Positions 13,112 to 60,229 of a stretch of DNA of 64,000 bases are shown in pieces. The position numbers and the translations under genes were made by a program. How positions within the stretch are numbered: position 1 is the first letter of the stretch; each line of letters opens with the position of its first letter. The notes below the pieces were generated by a model that had not been told where the DNA came from, did not search any database, and was given only the letters and a program-made list of their open reading frames with translations. This stretch comes from Metridium senile (lineage: Eukaryota; Cnidaria; Anthozoa; Actiniaria; Metridiidae): assembly GCA_949775045.1 (NCBI GenBank), contig OX459100.1, forward strand, positions 16,820,241 through 16,884,240. The letters are read 5' to 3'.

Positions 13112-29057
<15,946 letters not shown>

Positions 29058-35108: not shown

Positions 35109-46293
<11,185 letters not shown>

Positions 46294-46628
46294 TATGTTG
46301 AATAAAGGTTCCAAATAGCGACAAAATGTAAGTTTATTGAAGTTCGGCCGCCATTTTGAAACGCATGGCCAACGTAACGAAGCGCATACTTTTTGGAAAG
46401 TTCACCGCTGTAAGTTCTGTCATCGCTGGCTCATACAGTCCAAATATTGTCTCTGTTTTCACTCTTTTGTTTTAATAATCATTAAAAGGCTGAAAATTTG
46501 TAATATTTTCTACTCAAAGCTAAATTGACATATGTAAGTTTTTTGGCGTTTTTCTAAACGATTTGGTTTAAAAGTAAATTTGGGTTCCCTGTGTTATTTT
46601 ACAGAGCCTTCAGTAAAAGATCAGCGGT
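46294..46628. promoter_or_regulatory. Bidirectional promoter region of PRPF3 and TMEM199
   Basis: Only about 335 bp separates the PRPF3 start (46293) from the ancestral TMEM199 start (46629). A GGCCGCCATTTTG sequence at 46346-46358 (complement CAAAATGGCGGCC) is a strong YY1-type site, usual near starts of housekeeping genes. The role as promoter is inferred. Confidence 0.5.
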
Positions 46629-46645
46629 ATGTCCAGTGAAAACAA
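46629..46645 (+). pseudogene. TMEM199: Displaced first codons of TMEM199
   Basis: ATG TCC AGT GAA AAC AA is cut off by the Foldback-like element. Removing the element and one copy of the 8-bp duplication gives a continuous in-frame junction with AAA ATG GTG GTC at 50838 onward, so the ancestral protein very probably began MSSENKMVVN. Confidence 0.75.
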
Positions 46646-46729
46646 GGTTGGTACTTCATTTGTCGTAAATGTAATCGATCGAAATACTCTAAGTGGGTAT
46701 CATAATAACCATATGTATTACCCCTGGTA

Positions 46730-48850
46730 TTACCCTGTATTCCCCTGTAATCCCCTGTATTCATATGTATTCCCCTGTATTCCCCTGTATTCATATGTAT
46801 TCATATGTATTCATATGTATACCCCTGTATACCCCTGTATACCCCTGTATTCCCCTGTATTCCCCTGTATTCCCCTGTATACCCCTGTATACCCCTGTAT
46901 TCCCCTGTATTCATATGTATTCATATGTATTCCCCTGTATACCCCTGTATTCCTCTGTATTCCCCTGTATTCCCCTGTATACCCCTGTATACCCCTGTAT
47001 ACCCCTGTATACCCCTGTATTCCCCTGTATTCCCCTGTATACCCCTGTATTCCCCTGTATTCATATGTATTCATATGTATTCCCCTGTATACCCCTGTAT
47101 ACCCCTGTATTCCCCTGTATACCCCTGTATACCCCTGTATACCCCTGTATTCATATGTATTCATATGTATTCCCTTGTATACCCCTGTATACCCCTGTAT
47201 TCCCCTGTATACCCCTGTATACCCCTGTATTCCCCTGTATTCATATGTATTCATATGTATTCCCCTGTATACCCCTGTATACCCCTGTATACCCCTGTAT
47301 ACCCCTGTATACCCCTGTATTCCCCTGTATACCCCTGTATACCCCTGTATTCATATGTATTCATATGTATTCCCCTGTATACCCTGTATACCCCTGTATA
47401 CCCCTGTATACCCCTGTATTCCCCTGTATACCCCTGTATTCATATGTATTCCCCTGTATACCCCTGTATACCCCTGTATTCCCCTGTATACCCCTGTATA
47501 CCCCTGTATACCCCTGTATACCCCTGTATACCCCTGTATACCCCTGTATTCATATGTATTCATATGTATTCCCCTGTATACCCCTGTATTCCCCTGTATT
47601 CATATGTATTCATATGTATTCCCCTGTATACCCCTGTATTCCCCTGTATTCATATGTATTCCCCTGTATACCCCTGTATACCCCTGTATTCCCCTGTATA
47701 CCCCTGTATACCCCTGTATTCCCCTGTATTCATATGTATTCATATGTATTCCCCTGTATACCCCTGTATACCCCTGTATACCCCTGTATACCCCCTGTAT
47801 ACCCCTGTATACCCCTGTATACCCCTGTATTCATATGTATTCATATGTATTCCCCTGTATACCCCTGTATACCCCTGTATACCCCTGTATCCCCCTGTAT
47901 CCCCTGTATTCATATGTATTCATATGTATACCCCTGTATACCCCTGTATACCCCTGTATACCCCTGTATACCCCTGTATACCCCTGTATTCATATGTATT
48001 CATATGTATTCCCCTGTATACCCCTGTATACCCCTGTATTCCCCTGTATACCCCTGTATTCCCCTGTATTCATATGTATTTTTCTGTATTCCCCTGTATT
48101 CATATGTATTCATATGTATTCCCCTGTATACCCCTGTATACCCCTGTATTCCCCTGTATACCCCTGTATACCCCTGTATTCCCCTGTATACCCCTGTATA
48201 CCCCTGTATATTATTCCCCTGTATTCATATGTATTGATATGTATACCCCTGTATAACCCTGTATACCCCTGTATACCCCTGTATACCCCTGTATACCCCT
48301 GTATACCCCTGTATACCCCTGTATACCCCTGTATCCCCCTGTATCCCCCTGTATCCCCTGTATTCATATGTATTCATATGTATACCCCTGTATACCCCTG
48401 TATACCCCTGTATACCCCTGTATACCCCTGTATACCCCTGTATACCCCTGTATACCCCTGTAATCCCCTGTATTCATATGTATTCATATGTATTCCGCTG
48501 TATACCCCTGTATACCCCTGTATACCCCTGTATACCCCTGTATACCCCTGTATTCCCCTGTATACCCCTGTATACCCCTGTATACCCCTGTATTCATATG
48601 TATTCATATGTATTCCCCTGTATACCCCTGTATACCCCTGTATTTCCCTGTATACCCCTGTACACCCCTGTAAACCCCTGTATTCCCCTGTATTCATATG
48701 TATTCATATGTATTCCCCTGTATACCCCTGTATTCCTCTGTATTCCCCTGTATACCCCTGTATACCCCTGTATTCCCCTGTATACCCCTGTATACCCCTG
48801 TATACCCCTGTATACCCCTGTATACCCCTGTATTCATATGTATTCATTAT
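46730..48850. repeat. 10-bp satellite, left arm (CCCCTGTATA type)
   Basis: About 210 decamers of three main forms, TGTATACCCC, TGTATTCCCC and TGTATTCATA, the last usually in pairs every 8-17 units, giving a loose higher-order period. A few indels (for example 47380, 47790, 48210) shift the register. The long Pro/Tyr/Cys/Ile open frames are by-products. Confidence 0.95.
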
Positions 48851-49539
48851 TAAACTTGGCCAAGTAAACAAATCGGTCAATCACAGCGTTCTTCTAAACA
48901 GATAAATGCCATGTTATTTATTAAATCGCTATATCGATAAAAAAGGTCATAAAAAAAAATTATTGAAATAAATAAAAGTATATGATCTTCAAGAGAGATT
49001 TATCTTTTCTCCAACTTGCCGACATTGAAAAATATTCATTAACTTATGATAACTTAGTCTCACATTTAGAGATGTCAAATATTGAAATTTCTGGACTATC
49101 ACTTTCTGGAAATGACTGTAGGTTATTCAAGCAATGTCTTACTGTAACAATCGGCTCCAGCGAAAACATTTAAAAAACATTAAACAAACACCTTCAGGGA
49201 TGTTACGCGAGTAAAAATGCCTGGTGAAAACAGCGGCATGTTTTCACCAGGCATTTCAACTGGCCTAAACTTCCATAAGGTGTTTGCTGACAGACCAACT
49301 TTAGACTATAACTTTAGACTTGTTTTCGACTGTTTTGACTTTTTAAGTGTCTGCGTGAGTAGATCTAGTTACATCCCGTGCATTTCGAAATCATTTATAG
49401 TAGAGTTCCGATATGGCGGAAATGGTTATTCGAGTTGCTAATTTTAACACGTGTGCATATCCATGTCGGTAACTTCTGCCGTCTCAGCAACTATGAAAGT
49501 TTCCTCTCACAACGACTATAACCGAGGGCCAAAACGACT
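48851..49539. other. Unique centre of the Foldback-like element
   Basis: No reading frame longer than about 75 codons and no recognised domain. It contains a perfect 18-bp stem hairpin at about 49215-49257. Likely an internally deleted or captured segment. Confidence 0.6.
49215..49257. other. Perfect hairpin in element centre
   Basis: AAATGCCTGGTGAAAACA, loop GCGGCA, then the exact complement. It could be a separate tiny MITE or part of the element's structure. Confidence 0.7.
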
Positions 49540-50770
49540 ACATATGAATACAGGGGAATACAGGGGTATACAGGGGTATACAGGGTTATACAGGGGTATA
49601 CATATGAATACATACGAATACAGGGGAATACAGGGGTATACAGGGGTATACAGGGGAATACAGGGGTATACAGGGGTATACAGGGGAATACATATGAATA
49701 CATATGAATACAGGGGTATACAGGGGTATACAGGGGTATACAGGGGTATACAGGGGAATATAGAGGAATACAGGGGTATACAGGGGTATACATGGGGAAT
49801 ACAGGGGTATACAGGGGTATACAGGGGTATACAGGGGTATACAGGGGTATACAGGGGTATACAGGGGTATACAGGGGAATACATATGAATACATATGAAT
49901 ACAGGGGAATACAGGGGTATACAGGGGAATACAGGGGTATACAGGGGTATCCAGGGGAATACAGGGGTAAACAGGGGAATACATATGAATACATATGAAT
50001 ACAGGGGAATACAGGGGTATACAGGGGTATACAGGGGAATACAGGGGTATACAGGGGAATACAGGGGTATACAGGGGTATACAGGGGTATACAGGGGTAT
50101 ACAGGGGTATACAGGGGTATACAGGGGAATACAGGGGAATACATATGAATACATATGAATACATATGAATACAGGGGAATACAGGGGTATACAGGGGTAT
50201 ACAGGGGAATACAGGGGTATACAGGGGAATACATATGAATACATATGAATACAGGGGAATACAGGGGAATACAGGGGTATACAGGGGTATACAGGGGTAT
50301 ACAGGGGTATACAGGGGTATACAGGGGTATACAGGGGAATACATATGAATACATATGAATACAGGGGTATACAGGGGTATACAGGGGTATACAGGGGTAT
50401 ACAGGGGAATACATATGAATACATATGAATACAGGGGAATACAGGGGTATACAGGGGTATACAGGGGTATACAGGGGAATACATATGAATACAGGGGTAT
50501 ACAGGGGAATACAGGGGAATACAGGGGTATACAGGGGAATACATATGAATACAGGGGAATACAGGGGTATACAGGGGTATACAGGGGTATACAGGGGTAT
50601 ACAGGGGTATACAGGGGTATACAGGGGTATACAGGGGTATACAGGGGAATACAGGGGTATACAGGGGAATACAGGGGAATACAGGGGAATACATATGAAT
50701 ACATATGAATACAGGGGAATACAGGGGAATACAGGGGAATACAGGGGAATACAGGGGAATACATATGGTT
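49540..50770. repeat. 10-bp satellite, right arm (inverted)
   Basis: About 122 decamers, exact reverse complement forms (ATACAGGGGT, ATACAGGGGA, ATACATATGA). The arm is shorter than the left (about 1.2 versus 2.1 kb). Confidence 0.95.
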
Positions 50771-50840
50771 ATTATGATACCCACTTAGAGTATTTCGATC
50801 GATTACATTTACGACAAATGAAGTACTTACCGAAAACAAA

Positions 50841-53800
50841 ATGGTGGTCAACATTGTGCTAACAAGAAGGATCAAAAATGCTATTTTAGATGTGCAAAAT
50901 ATTGACAAAACTCCTAAAGATTTGATAGATAGACTATCAGAATACAACTCGAAAGATGAGGACAAAAATTTTGATAAAACCGCAAGTATAGAGTTCTCTC
51001 TTGTACGGGAAGTTTGGCAAGTTTTGAAGAAAAACAGTTTATCATTAGGTAAGATAGCTTTAAAATTATCCTATTTTTATCTTGACAAAGAAAACATTAA
51101 TAAGTGGTACAATCCAATTTATTCATTAGTCTATGGAACCTCTTAATAATAAACTTTGACTTAATAATACAAAAGCACCATGAGTCAAAGCTGTGATGCT
51201 TGCAATCTGGCCTTGTTTTTTTTGGGGCACCACTGCCAAGTAGTCTTAGTTGGTTAATAATTTAAGAGAAGGTGCTACTGTACCTTTGTAATTACATCTG
51301 CAAATGGTTAGCCCTTCTCAGATACATTAAATACAAAACATTCCATTTATCTCCATTCACAATAACCATAATGCCTTCTGTTTTTGGGGTTAGCTATTGT
51401 CATGCAAACAAAAATTATAAATGGAAACTAGGGAGTAAACTAGTATACTCATATTACTGGAACTAACAATAACCCTAAATCTAAAGAAATGCAACTTATT
51501 TATTCCTTAGGAACACAGCAACCTTTTGGCATGAATGAACAATTTGCTTTCAATTAATTTTTCCATTGGTCTTTAACTCCTCCTACATTTTCTATCGCCT
51601 TTTGATTGGTTTATCACTTTTCCCATTTCTTATTTATACAAAGTATCTCTCTTAGTCTAACTCTTTTACTCCGACGAAGGGCTAAAGCTCAAAACGTCAG
51701 TAAAGTTAAGTCAACATTTTTAACGGTGTTACAAATTTCATTATTAATATTACCTATCATTTATTGTCAAACAAAAAACAATATCTAACCCCCAAAAACA
51801 GAAGGCTTTATGGTTGTGTGAAAGTAGAGAATATGCAAATTATAATTATATCTATTACAAAAAAGATATAATTATAATAACTAATTGTGTGTTTCAGGCG
51901 ATTCAAGTCAAATTTATTTACATGAGCTTTTGGAAGGAAGTGATCTTTATGTTCCTCCACCAAAGCCACCAGAAAGGGTAAATAATTATTAAACTCATGA
52001 ATATCTTGAATCTATTTAGTTTTCAGGCTCAAGGGTTAATATGTGTAATTTTTACTTTTTTATTAATAATAATAATAATTTATTTGTTCAAATGCAAATT
52101 TTCAAATACGCTTATTACTAAAAAAATCATAACTGCTAAGATCAGTGCACAGTCTTTAGGTGTTGAAATCAACAAGACAGCTAGTATTTTAATTTATGCA
52201 TTACAATAAAGGGGTGATTTTCAAAATCAACCTCCAATCAACACCTACCACTTTGACGAAGAGAGTCCCCTGGGGGTTCTTGCAAATAGTCTGAACAACA
52301 TTAATACGAACAAAGTTAAATAAATAATGAAGTTGTGTTTATTAGTTGTCAATGAATACTTTTGTTTATCAGAGTCCAGAGCTTGTAGCACGTCTGAAAA
52401 AGCTGCAAGCACAACATGAAAGGAGACAGTATAATGCTATGGTTTCTAATCTAGGGCCAAAGGTAGGTTAAAGTCATTCATTATGAATAAATAGTTCACT
52501 CAATACACCCTATTCATAAAGGGGTGGCAATAATGATATCTTAGCTAATCAGTTTTAGAAGACACCATTGCTTTTATTAGAAAGAGCACATCGAAATTAC
52601 TAATATTCCAAAAGTTCAATTATAAATTAACATAAAATGATAAAAAGCTACAGCTGGTTTTTGTTAGTTCATTGTTCCAGTAGTCCTTTCTTGTTGAAGT
52701 CCATTAGCTTTCATGGCTCTAGGGGTTGTTTCCTCTTCGGTGGCTCTGGTGGCAGTGGGCTTGGTGGTGTTGCGTGGGGTGTTGGGACTTGAGGTTCCTC
52801 ACCCAGACCGTCTGGCTTTCTGGTATCCTGGGTTGGTAACACTTTGTTGCTTGGTGAGACTCGAGGTGGTTATGCCAGAGGGTTGGAAGTTTGCCTCAGT
52901 CAATGTCTCGTGATTAAGTCATCATGAATAGTGTGTGGAGGTGGTGGCGTGTGAACAGGGACATTCTTTGTCTGGAATTAAATTCAATTAATAAGTTACA
53001 CAGCCCTCTATAAGTTAAGCTAGCACCATGACAGTGTTTACTTTATATACACCTATTTCCAAAATCGTTGTCGCAATAAAAGCTGCAGTCCACACTCTGA
53101 AGCCTGCAAAGGATATTGGTAATATGAACTGAATGTGTGATTTATTACGCGCTTTTTAAATAAATATTTGACTCATCATCTATCACTGCAAAACTTGTTA
53201 TGTTCATATACTACAAACACGTACAATCAAAATATATTTAGAATAAACCGATTACAAGAGTAGAAATACCAACATCTTTTGCAGGCTTCAGTGTGTGTAC
53301 TGTAGCTTCGGCTGCGACAACCATTTTTGAAATAGGTGTATCGTCTGAGGCTACAGTACATTTTATTTAAGAGTGTAGAATGGTCTGATCACAGCACATC
53401 AACATATTTATTTTTTTGAAAATGTTTTTTTTTTCCATATCAACAGTATGATGCATCTAAAGAGTTGGCAACAGAAGGTAACACGTTTATGAGATCTGTA
53501 AAAAATTTAAAACAAAATGTTTTTCAGTATCTTTCCTTTTCATTCATCTAATTATCTACTCATTGATTCCCACATTAATTCACCAATTGATTTCATTTCT
53601 TCATGATTTTATTAATTTTCCATTTAATATTATATTATAACCATCCATCCTTTCACCTATTGTTTGACTGATTGGTTCATTAAATAGAAACTAGCAAGTA
53701 AACTTGTATAGGCTGCCTCAGTGTTTGATATTTAAAACGATAGGTAATATAATGAAATTTGTAACACCATAAAAAAATGTTGACTTAACTTTACTGACGT

Positions 53801-54815
53801 TTCGAGCTTTAGCCCTTCATCGGACTAAAAGAGTCCTCTTTTTTTACACACTTCTTTTACGGTGTTTCAAATTTAATTATATTACCTATGATTGGTTCAT
53901 TCATTAATGTCATCAATCAATTCATTCATTTATTCATTCATTTATTTATCCATCACTCTGTCCATCAATCCATGCATCCATACACTCATTTATTTATCAA
54001 TGTTAGAAGCTTTTATCTGTTTATGCAATTATACATACATGTATATTTTCATTTGATAATTGATCAGTATTAAAATTAGTAATTCTGCTGTCCATATTTG
54101 TCATCCATCCATTTATAATAGTTTACATTTATCTATTTTACAGTAAGAACAACATCCAAGCAGTTATCATCTATATTCAGCTTCATAGTCAGTATTGTAG
54201 CAGCATTTCTCTTTGGTTTGATGGCTTCACAGTATTCTTTTCCAAATCTAGCAATGGTAAATAGAAAACATTTAACACCATCATTTAACTGATTTTTTTG
54301 TCGTTTTTGGAGTTTTTATACAGTCAATGTCATTAATGTTGTCCACCAAAAAGACATAGACACTTTGTAAAAGAAATGTCACATGACACAACATAAACTT
54401 GCTCAAAATAACTCAATGCTAGCATTAAGCTTGGTACATAGATTTCATAATTCTTATTCCATATTCTATGTTACTCATTATACAGTTAAAAACCGAAACA
54501 AAGAAACAATCTTATTCCCATTGTCACTAAATCTAACTATGCATGTATGACGATATCAAGATATATCGTTGAGTGTATGAGATACATCGTTGAGCATGCG
54601 CAGTAAGATATAACGACAATAATTAGTTAATTGCTTCAAAGAGCTTATAAAATGTAGCCTGCGTTTACATCCGGAATTTTCTTCGTAAAATTTCAGATGT
54701 AACGCAGGCTAATAAAATATTTTTATTTTCTTCCTAGAGAGTCATCACTGGTATCGTATTAGCCTGTTTAGTGGCGATAGCTGATATCTACTTCATGGCA
54801 AGGACAGAAATATAG
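50841..54815 (+). CDS. TMEM199: TMEM199 (VMA12-like V-ATPase assembly factor)
   Basis: Six coding exons: 50841-51048, 51898-51977, 52373-52462, 53447-53477, 54144-54256, 54738-54815, phases all consistent, 199 aa (human 208). Family marks are YLHELLEGSDLYVPPP (human LYLHELLEGSEIYLP), SPELVARLKKLQAQ, YDASKELATEVRTTSKQLSS, and two C-terminal membrane helices (about 145-166 and 175-193) with FSFIVSIVAAFLFG and RVITGIVLACLVAIADIYFM. TMEM199 is an ER/Golgi membrane protein, orthologous to yeast Vma12, needed for V-ATPase assembly. The present start is ancestral Met7 (AAAATGG context); the first six codons and the promoter are 4.2 kb upstream, beyond the Foldback-like element. Introns carry MITEs and ribozyme-like repeats. 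Confidence 0.9.
51350..51830. mobile_element. Inverted-repeat element enclosing Penelope/ribozyme-like repeat, copy 4
   Basis: Inverted ends of about 42 bp: CCATAATGCCTTCTGTTTTT at 51366 and AAAAACAGAAGGCTTTATGG at 51791. Inside are GGAAACTAGGGAGTAAACTAG (51421) and the CCGACGAAGGGCTAAAGCTC / AAAACGTCAG motif (51671). Confidence 0.75.
53046..53342. mobile_element. MITE (family A) in TMEM199 intron 3
   Basis: Left TATACACCTATTTCCAAAAT, right ATTTTTGAAATAGGTGTAT; shares CACACTCTGAAGCCTGCAAA with the 2174 copy. Confidence 0.85.
53685..53890. mobile_element. Penelope/ribozyme-like dispersed repeat, copy 5 (best preserved)
   Basis: GAAACTAGCAAGTAAACTTG, TATAGGCTGC, TTTGTAACACC, TGTTGACTTAACTTTACTGA, CGTTTCGAGCTTTAGCCC, TTCATCGG in order. 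The minus strand gives a hammerhead-like core (CCGATGA, short stem, GAAA, CGTC). Confidence 0.65.
54655..54712. mobile_element. Short palindrome (family F) in TMEM199 intron 5
   Basis: TAGCCTGCGTTTACATCCGG with inverted partner CAGATGTAACGCAGGCTA just upstream of the last exon. Confidence 0.75.
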
Positions 54816-57490: not shown

Positions 57491-60086
57491 TCAAGTAGTG
57501 TTTTTATATTGTACAAGCCAGTTACGAAGGTTTTCCATGTTGTACATGAACGGCCCCGTCCCTCCTTCGTACTCTAGAATCCCGTTCTTTATGGCATGAA
57601 GGCGAATTGGAGTAGCTCCGTACGACATGCAGGCAGCATCTAGCATACTGTCAACTAACACTGGACAACTTGGATTGAAGGTTCTTTGGAGCAGCCTGGC
57701 GGCTTCACAGCGGTCTTTGATGGAGTGATGGGTCTTGATCTTTATATCACTCTGAAGAAAGACATAATTTGGATTAATGTTTTGAATAGGAATTCACACG
57801 ATGTTGAGTACCATTTAGTAGTAATATATTAATATAGTTACGAGTGCTATTTTAAAAGTTTTCTAAATTGGACGAGTCCTTTAGGCGAGTATCTGCAGAG
57901 TACAATTTATGATTTCTCTCGTCCAATCAGAATTAAGTAGATTATATGTATAGGAAATCGCCCAATCTACATCTTGTGTACAATTTGTAACTTATAGGTA
58001 CGAGTGATATTCTGAAAGTTTTCTAAATTGGACGAGCCCTTAAGGCGAGTATCTGTAGAGTACAATTACGATTTAATTGTACTCCGGAATCCTCTCGTCC
58101 AATCAGAATCGATTAGTATAATTTTGTACAGTACATTATAAGTCAGTAATCTCTTATTGTACTTGAACATTGAGGCGATGAGTAATGTTCTTGTACATTA
58201 TATTCTATTCTTAGTTCACGGAGCCGTTATCAAGGACTAGAATAAGATCACGGCAACTCGATAGTGCTAGCTTTATGTTCATAACGAGTTCTTTCAAAGA
58301 GCATTCAAATGAAAGATTGCTTGGAGAAAGTAATGCATGGAAGAAAAGGCCAAAAGTATTTTTCTGTGTTGCATTTCAGTTTGCGAGAACAGCTGTAAAA
58401 TAGACGACCTCCTCCTCGTGGTCTTTAACTAATACTATAACCTACACAGCAACATTCGCGGTATTAAAAGCATAAGTTGACGAAATACAAAAATTGGTTA
58501 GTGGTATAAATATCCCGAACACTGCAGCGTTTCTTTTTCTAGTATTTGTATTTATCATTTGTACGCCCGTGTTTATTTCCCGTTGCTGCACAAATCGTCA
58601 GATTTACAAACGATAAAGCAAGTAGAAAATAACCTCTGGTACTTAGGATAGGATATAAAATGTCCTCTTTATAAAATGGTATGTGTAATGCTTTGCATGT
58701 TTTATGTCTTGCAAGCAGCATGTTTTTACTTAGGGTATAGGATATAAAATGTCCTCTTTATAAAATGGTATGTGTAATGCTTTGTATGTTTTATGTCTTG
58801 CAAGCGGCATGTTTTTACATGCCTTGTTAATGACATTTATGACATAACTAATTATTCGAATATAACCTCGCGTTAAACACACTTATATTCCACACACAAC
58901 CAAGCCATGCCCCAGTCCAATTTTGACCTTCCGATCTACATGTTATGGAAATTGGCTTGCATCCTGTTTATCGGAAATCCACAAACGTTTCACAGACAAT
59001 AACCGGTAATACTGCGTAGGTTTTTAGATTAAAATGGACGCCCACCTAAAATCCCATAATGGGCCAGGTAGTGATCATTGTACTTAAACCCAACGCTTCC
59101 TCGACAAAGATTTTTCTAACCTTAGATCTTTTTCAAATGACTTTTTTAATAACATCCTCGATGATCTTTATATTTCCGCACTTTTCCTGGCTAAATGTTT
59201 TTCTAAGTATGTACAGGAAATGTGTATTGTCCTTCCCTATTGTACGTTTTTCTTGTACCTGATTGTTTGATCTGTTGTTATTCATTGTTTGCACCAATAA
59301 AGGAACATGAATAGGCTCATAATGTTTACAGAAAGAGGTATATTTTCGTGGTTCATGCACGAAACTGTTTTACTGGTCAAAAAAGAAAATACCAGTTCAC
59401 AAACCGTTGATTTGACAAGGCTTTGTTACATCAAACTCCTGTGTGAGTTTTATTCAGCCAAAAATGACCTGAACATTCTAATTACATCCATATTGGCAAA
59501 CTTAAAAGCGATATGTTTAAAATGGTATGATATAGATATAAGTTTATATGAATGAAAAGTTTCTTACCTTGAACGCCCAGCCATCAGATGGATGCGCCTC
59601 CTCAATGTAAACAATAACAAAGTCTGCAATATCTTCAAACTCTTTTTCAATTGAGAAGAAATCGTTCAATCTAGCTGTAAACACAGGGCAGGTCAGACTC
59701 CCAAAGTTCATTACTAAAAGACGACCTTTTGTAGCATGGTCAAGAAGATGTGCCATCTTTCCGTCGTCGTCGTCGTTGTTGTTGTTGTTGTTGTTGTTGT
59801 TTTCGTCAATATAAACAACAGGAGCGTCAGGAGCTTTTTCCTTCAAAGTTATCGTCTTGTTCAAGTCAATCTGAATGGTTCGCCATACTGTTTCAAGCAT
59901 CTCCCAGCTGAAGAGAGAATCCCAGTACAAGTCCAACGGGAGGCATAATCCAGACATTTTATCAAAGCCTTTCACTATAACTTTATTAATGAATGGTATT
60001 CCTTTAACAACCCATCCGATCTGAAAAGCCATTAAAACCAGAACGTAGATGACGAAACTTCGCAATGGATTCAAATCAACGGCCAT
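57491..60086 (-). CDS. Iodothyronine deiodinase-like protein, Cys type
   Basis: Two coding exons, 59568-60086 and 57491-57751, joined in phase 0 (GWAFK/SDIKIK), 259 aa. The start chosen is MAVDLNPLRSF; an upstream in-frame Met (60149) is less likely. An N-terminal membrane segment (about 10-27), then the thioredoxin-fold core with LLVMNFGSLTCPVFTARL, the deiodinase signature EEAHPSDGW (162-170) and the C-terminal VDSMLDAACMSYGATPIRL..GGTGPF block match the family. In vertebrate enzymes the site is SC-T-Sec; here it is SLT-Cys133, encoded by TGC, so no selenocysteine is needed. A run of nine Asn and four Asp (96-108, triplet repeat) lies just before the core. It presumably reduces iodinated or other small substrates at a membrane; activity is uncertain. 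Confidence 0.9.
57840..58145. repeat. Duplicated repeat in deiodinase intron
   Basis: TTTTCTAAATTGGACGAG, GGCGAGTATCTG and CTCGTCCAATCAGAAT occur at 57860-57955 and again at 58017-58110. A related fragment lies near 43525 (CTTGTCCAATCGGAATCGAG). Confidence 0.75.
58641..58819. repeat. Tandem duplication, about 88-bp unit, 2 copies
   Basis: ATATAAAATGTCCTCTTTAT to GCATGTTTTTACTT repeated once with two or three differences. Confidence 0.9.
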
Positions 60087-60229
60087 GTTTTTTAGCTCGG
60101 TTTTTCCCCGGAAAATATAACGATGTCTACACTGGTAACGTTGTGGCAACTAATGCTGCTTTGACAACTGTTCCCCTTATATACCTTAAGTGTTGTTAAC
60201 TACCAAAAGTCACCGAACTGTACCTAATC

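Follow-up and report, generated by a model that had tools for sequence, protein, structure and literature searches.

A probable foldback-like DNA transposon with an 8-bp target-site duplication in the 5′ leader of a sea-anemone TMEM199 gene

An insertion of 4.2 kb stands directly in front of the TMEM199 start codon in a 64,000-nucleotide stretch of the genome of the sea anemone Metridium senile (contig OX459100.1; the whole 64-kb stretch that was analysed is called the window below, and positions are counted from its first letter). It is very probably a non-autonomous foldback-like cut-and-paste DNA transposon that entered the 5′ leader of TMEM199/Vma12 and produced an 8-bp target-site duplication. 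Transposition is concluded because a perfect 8-bp duplication lies exactly at the ends of an inverted repeat identical at 72 of 74 positions, and because this repeat encloses inverted arrays of a 10-bp unit. Downstream of the element, the start codon matches that of the orthologues and opens an uninterrupted coding sequence of six exons.

Anatomy of the insertion and position of the TMEM199 start codon

Direct sequence comparison revealed a segment of 4,186 bp (46646 to 50831) flanked on both sides by identical copies of GAAAACAA, that is, a target-site duplication (8/8 bp) at the ends of a foldback-like element. The duplication is 8 bp long, the 9-bp version failing on both sides. A direct repeat of an 8-mer at two fixed places has a chance of 3e-5 as calculated from base composition, and when 200,000 pairs of places in the window were drawn at random, 30 shared an 8-mer. 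The ends of the segment, GGTTGGTACTTC and GGTAAGTACTTC, are in inverted orientation and belong to 74-bp terminal inverted repeats, in which the sole mismatches are at positions 4 and 5 (TG in the left repeat, AA in the right). When a 20-base terminal pattern was searched with up to 3 mismatches, exactly two matches were found in the 64 kb, namely the two ends of the element, compared with a mean of 0.02 matches in 100 shuffles, none of which had two. A 21-base terminal pattern had no match in the viral and bacterial/archaeal contig collections, which contain no anemones, and two terminal and two array strings had none in the text of the 5.39 million papers searched. An earlier note on this DNA had described perfect 8-bp repeats around 4,186 bp, with inverted ends followed by long inverted arrays of 10-bp units, and these observations are confirmed to the base level. 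As for its interpretation, the non-autonomous foldback-like transposon with an 8-bp duplication, located between TMEM199 and a head-to-head neighbour, stood, whereas the disruption of TMEM199 coding sequence did not, as the orthologues described below start at MVV.

Inside the terminal repeats, the 10-bp unit TGTATACCCC and its two main variants make up two long arms of unequal copy number (Table 1). Among the 25 longest of 244 inverted-repeat pairs, 24 lie in these arms, with lengths of 481-494 nt and 84-89% complementarity. Inverted arms of short tandem units around a unique middle are the architecture of the foldback-like class, and the anemone element is a further example of this structural class, which was already known. 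The terminal repeat continues into CATATGTATT, which at the same time represents the TTCATATGTA variant of the array's unit; the inner edge of the repeat may therefore be the place from which this unit expanded. For Tetris, an origin of the repeats from part of the element's own terminal repeat has been proposed (PMC4079207). The two arms have a common unit grammar, in that the unit after the last TTCATA of a run is TTCCCC, TACCCC or a different one in ratios of 15:3:4 in the left arm and 9:2:0 in the right. In both arms, TTCCCC units are enriched toward the outer ends, with permutation fractions of 0.0032 (left) and 0.0137 (right) when TTCCCC and TACCCC units only are counted and other units are excluded (n=149 left, n=92 right). 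Since grammar and outward gradient are common to both, their sequences suggest that the arms are copies of one ancestral array, which would later have been reshuffled, for example by unequal exchange. A 200-amino-acid (aa) translation of the left end and array gave five protein matches from five candidates, which were judged unrelated; they have a CIPLYSPVF-like low-complexity stretch in common, and no translation of the terminal repeat was seen in them.

The middle domain was scanned for coding capacity. Its listing comprises 24 open reading frames (ORFs) of at least 25 aa, of which 16 were scanned against Pfam (one of them partly) without a match at E<=1; the remaining 8 translate the arrays. 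No homologue candidate emerged for a 65-aa plus-strand ORF, so that neither a transposase nor a captured gene was found by the Pfam scan of these 16 ORFs and the homologue search with this one. Rfam gave no match at gathering scores, and a tRNA search gave none. The middle domain also contains an imperfect palindrome of 102 bp, which is possibly a nested miniature element; no direct repeat was seen at its flanks by eye.

A protein search with the conceptual TMEM199 sequence yielded four matches among 147 candidates. Three of them are sea-anemone orthologues, from Exaiptasia diaphana (76% identity, the best match), Actinostola sp. (66%) and Actinia tenebrosa (62%), and all three begin with MVV, the methionine of which is the residue that the earlier note called Met7. 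The fourth match is distant, with 25% query coverage, and is not aligned at the start. Starting with the ATG at 50841, the coding sequence comprises six exons bounded by GT/AG, amounts to 600 bases including the stop codon and encodes an uninterrupted protein of 200 aa, compared with 199, 194 and 201 aa in the anemone orthologues; a near-identical typed version of this protein contains a Vma12 domain (PF11712, E 3e-25). Because all three orthologues start at MVV and the length of the six-exon protein counted from MVV matches theirs, the element most likely sits in the 5′ untranslated region (UTR) of TMEM199, directly before the start codon, with the coding part intact. By the same sequence comparison, translation most likely began at the ATG of MVV in the ancestral gene, and the native context of this start codon is most likely supplied by the duplication's right copy together with the next A.

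As a non-autonomous element, the insertion would have depended for its movement on an autonomous relative, whose transposase would act in trans and bind the terminal repeats and perhaps also the 10-bp units; by analogy with the arm repeats of Galileo, the arrays of these units may act as transposase-binding sites. Several points weigh against a transposon in the leader. One copy was seen in the window, and mobility is argued from its duplication and ends. No transposase was found in the element among the 16 ORFs scanned, and the superfamily is guessed from the termini. Collinearity of the two arms was rejected, as their score of 61 (block-shuffle mean, 55.5) was equalled in 19 of 100 block shuffles and does not go beyond chance. 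Finally, the starts of the orthologues were taken from database proteins, not from mapped transcripts.

Superfamily assignment and the closest known systems

Among the superfamilies of DNA transposons, Merlin is favoured because of the GG termini combined with the 8-bp duplication, and the element is filed as Merlin-like, not as a member of Merlin, which is a guess from the termini. Merlin requires terminal repeats that start with GG and a duplication of 8 or 9 bp, and both were found here. A Merlin element also either encodes a DDE_Tnp_IS1595 transposase or has its ends in common with an element that does; Pfam gave no match at E<=1 in the 16 ORFs scanned. All described Merlin families have terminal GG, with duplications of 8-9 bp and terminal repeats of 24-462 bp, and significant matches as well as internal tandem repeats have been reported, the former in 10 cnidarian species (PMC8101967). 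The anemone element resembles them in terminal GG, duplication length, terminal-repeat length, internal tandem repeats and cnidarian host, and the Merlin family Sy.m_F1 has its tandem-repeat region duplicated in opposite orientation (PMC8101967). It differs from Merlin in that no transposase was found in it and in its inverted arms of more than 1 kb made of short units, which occur in none of the Merlin elements described in those parts of the source on which we draw (PMC8101967). The present copy looks young and has GG ends, and if a Merlin partner were found, the foldback architecture could be tied to Merlin.

The main alternative is mobilisation by a Mutator-like transposase of the Phantom, Ghost or Spectre type, a serious contender to which we give rather less than even weight. 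The 8-bp duplication lies inside the range of 8-11 bp of Mutator-like elements, in Spectre an 8-bp duplication accompanies perfect terminal repeats of 74 bp, and a Ghost sub-group is listed from Cnidaria (PMC6446971). Most foldback elements have been placed in Mutator (PMC4079207), and a Phantom-like transposase is part of nematode Tm1, the units of which measure about 14 bp and the duplications mostly 8-10 bp (PMC3169594). On the other side, the GG termini and a duplication of exactly 8 bp agree readily with the Merlin signature, whereas the commonest duplication in the part of the Mutator table considered here is 9 bp (PMC6446971). Mutator-like elements are also marked by a MULE transposase, or by ends in common with an element that encodes one, and the 16 ORFs scanned had no Pfam match. 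Tm1, a Phantom-type Mutator element of root-knot nematodes, is similar to the anemone element in its composite ends, variable number of short units, unequal inverted arms and asymmetric outermost bases, and 45 of 53 complete Tm1 elements have duplications of 8-10 bp; unlike the anemone element, Tm1 has units of 13-15 bp, duplications that are most often 9 bp, other terminal motifs and a known transposase-encoding copy (PMC3169594).

The GG ends of the anemone element were also compared with those of hAT and P/Galileo, and both are disfavoured. The duplication length of 8 bp fits hAT, but its terminal bases are of CA/TA type, and P/Galileo elements have CA-type terminal bases with duplications of 7-8 bp. 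Galileo itself combines P-type ends with a 7-bp duplication, unlike the GG ends and 8 bp seen here, and Drosophila Foldback (FB) differs from the anemone element in its 9-bp duplications. Invertebrate foldback elements with 8-bp duplications are known in the TU elements of sea urchins, the units of which are 15 bp long. Like the anemone element, Drosophila Tetris and FB have tandem repeats in the terminal arms and a middle without coding capacity, and Tetris has duplications of 8-10 bp; its units are about 220 bp, unlike the 10-bp units here, and the comparison is one of architecture (PMC4079207). Galileo of the P superfamily has foldback-like arms as well, and its repeats include transposase-binding sites (PMC3688188). 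Coral CMITEs, which are about 100 bp long and have TTAA duplications (PMC2872659), were set aside. Foldback-like architecture occurs with different transposase classes (PMC3169594).

Consequences for the TMEM199 leader and remaining explanations

Head-to-head with TMEM199, a gene on the minus strand encodes a PWI-domain protein (PF01480, E 1.4e-10) that starts at 46293 and that we take, from its sequence, to be PRPF3-like. The distance between the two start codons is 4,547 bp at present and becomes 353 bp when the element and one copy of the duplication are removed. A putative promoter common to both genes plausibly lies inside these 353 bp, from which the element would separate the TMEM199 start codon by about 4 kb of repeats. 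There are 83 ATGs inside the element, ahead of the TMEM199 start codon. A transcript begun upstream would contain all of them and might fold into a long hairpin, so that expression of this allele would require either splicing or a start site within the element. Transcription of TMEM199 might begin inside the element or at its right end; alternatively, the element might be spliced out of the leader. As a natural experiment, the locus offers a clean test of how a housekeeping gene functions behind 83 ATGs and 4 kb of repeats able to form hairpins.

Removal of the element from TMEM199 RNA as an introner-like 5′ UTR intron, with a donor at the insertion junction and an acceptor in the far terminal repeat, is in our judgement unlikely. 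Splice sites were scored with approximate donor frequencies for metazoans, and the acceptor score was a crude one. The junction donor AAG/gttggt (the slash marks the boundary) scores 5.5, which is the 97th percentile of the plus-strand GT sites of the window and close to the weakest real TMEM199 donor (5.6). When the minus strand is read inward from the right end, TCG/GTAAGT reaches 9.0, the 99.7th percentile, and on the plus strand the cacttag that ends at 50788 makes a fair acceptor. Introner families described earlier have duplications of 3-9 bp, and some of them have splice sites (PMC9860276). Set against this, every one of the five real TMEM199 donors (5.6-10.3) outscores the junction donor, and a short way upstream of the element there are three better donors, at 46626 (7.7), 46409 (6.4) and 46533 (6.2). 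The candidate acceptor (0.82) is likewise lower than all five real TMEM199 acceptors (0.86-1.11), with better ones (0.93) in the middle domain at 48902 and at 49488. The median lengths of introner families are 30-654 nt (PMC9860276), compared with more than 4 kb here. The approximate donor matrix also counts against this explanation. Among plus-strand donors in 46360-50845, the strongest by score is GCG/gtatgt at 46626, which overlaps the upstream ATG considered below.

Either terminal repeat can start G/GTAAGTAC, a near-ideal donor that is intact at the right end, and a CACTTAG acceptor lies about 43 bp in on the other strand of the repeat. A broader proposal, that the element is splice-ready in either orientation and would form its own intron in a transcribed leader, as an animal introner-like foldback transposon of Merlin type, appears distinctly improbable. 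If it were true, a self-made intron would let a 4.2-kb foldback element precede a housekeeping start codon with little harm.

The earlier note had placed the insertion six codons into TMEM199, so that the coding sequence was cut after codon 6 and the use of Met7 was forced. In silico excision of the element with one copy of the duplication does restore ATG TCC AGT GAA AAC AAA ATG GTG in frame, giving an upstream ATG and MSSENK-MVVN. Against this stand the common MVV start and the matching lengths of the three orthologues, and residues matching MSSENK occur in none of these three predicted database proteins, which is the observation that the note itself had named as refuting, as far as three predicted proteins can show it. 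The upstream ATG also has a weaker context (G at −3, T at +4) than the ATG of MVV (A at −3, G at +4). An in-frame upstream start in M. senile is possible, but a cut coding sequence is very improbable, and Met7 is most likely no forced substitute. Least credible of all is that no transposition occurred and that a palindromic rearrangement or an assembly artefact of satellite mimics an insertion: a single copy was seen, and assemblers have difficulty with long inverted arrays of a satellite, yet the perfect 8-bp duplication lies exactly at the ends of the inverted repeat, the greater part of which is outside the satellite, and the TMEM199 flank is an open gene.

Feature coordinates and other observations in the window

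Table 1. Features of the insertion, of TMEM199 and of its neighbour (window positions)
Feature	Position	Strand	Remark
Presumed start codon of the PWI-domain, PRPF3-like neighbour	46291..46293	-	
Left copy of the 8-bp target-site duplication GAAAACAA	46638..46645	.	direct sequence comparison
Candidate splice donor AAG/gttggt at the insertion junction	46644..46652	+	predicted
Left terminal inverted repeat, 74 bp	46646..46719	+	72/74 identical to the right one
Left arm, about 212 copies of the 10-bp unit (TGTATACCCC / TGTATTCCCC / TGTATTCATA variants)	46714..48833	+	Tandem Repeats Finder: 212.5 copies, 88% matches
Middle domain, about 700 bp	48834..49545	.	between the two arrays
Imperfect 102-bp palindrome in the middle domain	49185..49286	.	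48-nt arms, 81% complementary, 6 nt between
Right arm, about 122 copies of the left arm's 10-bp unit, inverted	49546..50763	-	Tandem Repeats Finder: 121.7 copies, 89% matches
Right terminal inverted repeat, 74 bp	50758..50831	-	72/74 identical to the left one
Candidate splice acceptor AG (cacttag/) in the right terminal repeat	50787..50788	+	predicted
Right copy of the 8-bp target-site duplication GAAAACAA	50832..50839	.	with the next A, most likely the TMEM199 start-codon context
TMEM199 coding exon 1, from ATG GTG GTC	50841..51048	+	
TMEM199 coding exon 2	51898..51977	+	
TMEM199 coding exon 3	52373..52462	+	
TMEM199 coding exon 4	53447..53477	+	short; weak match by itself, E 0.42
TMEM199 coding exon 5	54144..54256	+	
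TMEM199 coding exon 6, including the stop codon	54738..54815	+	

Where the PWI-domain exon of the neighbouring gene seems to end, an 84-bp minisatellite begins (44314-45763; 17 copies, 93% matches), one minus-strand frame of which is open over 502 aa. An inverted repeat of 425 nt (42180-42604 / 42974-43398) is identical at 420 of 425 positions, with 369 nt between its halves, and overlaps a minus-strand ORF with a GIY-YIG domain (42322-42990; PF01541, E 6e-6); together they may represent a Penelope-like retroelement and an inverted copy of it. A near-perfect GCAA array occupies 16953-17331 (95 copies, 99% matches), with several frames open, and a minus-strand ORF at 59544-60149 has an iodothyronine deiodinase domain (PF00837, E 8e-32).

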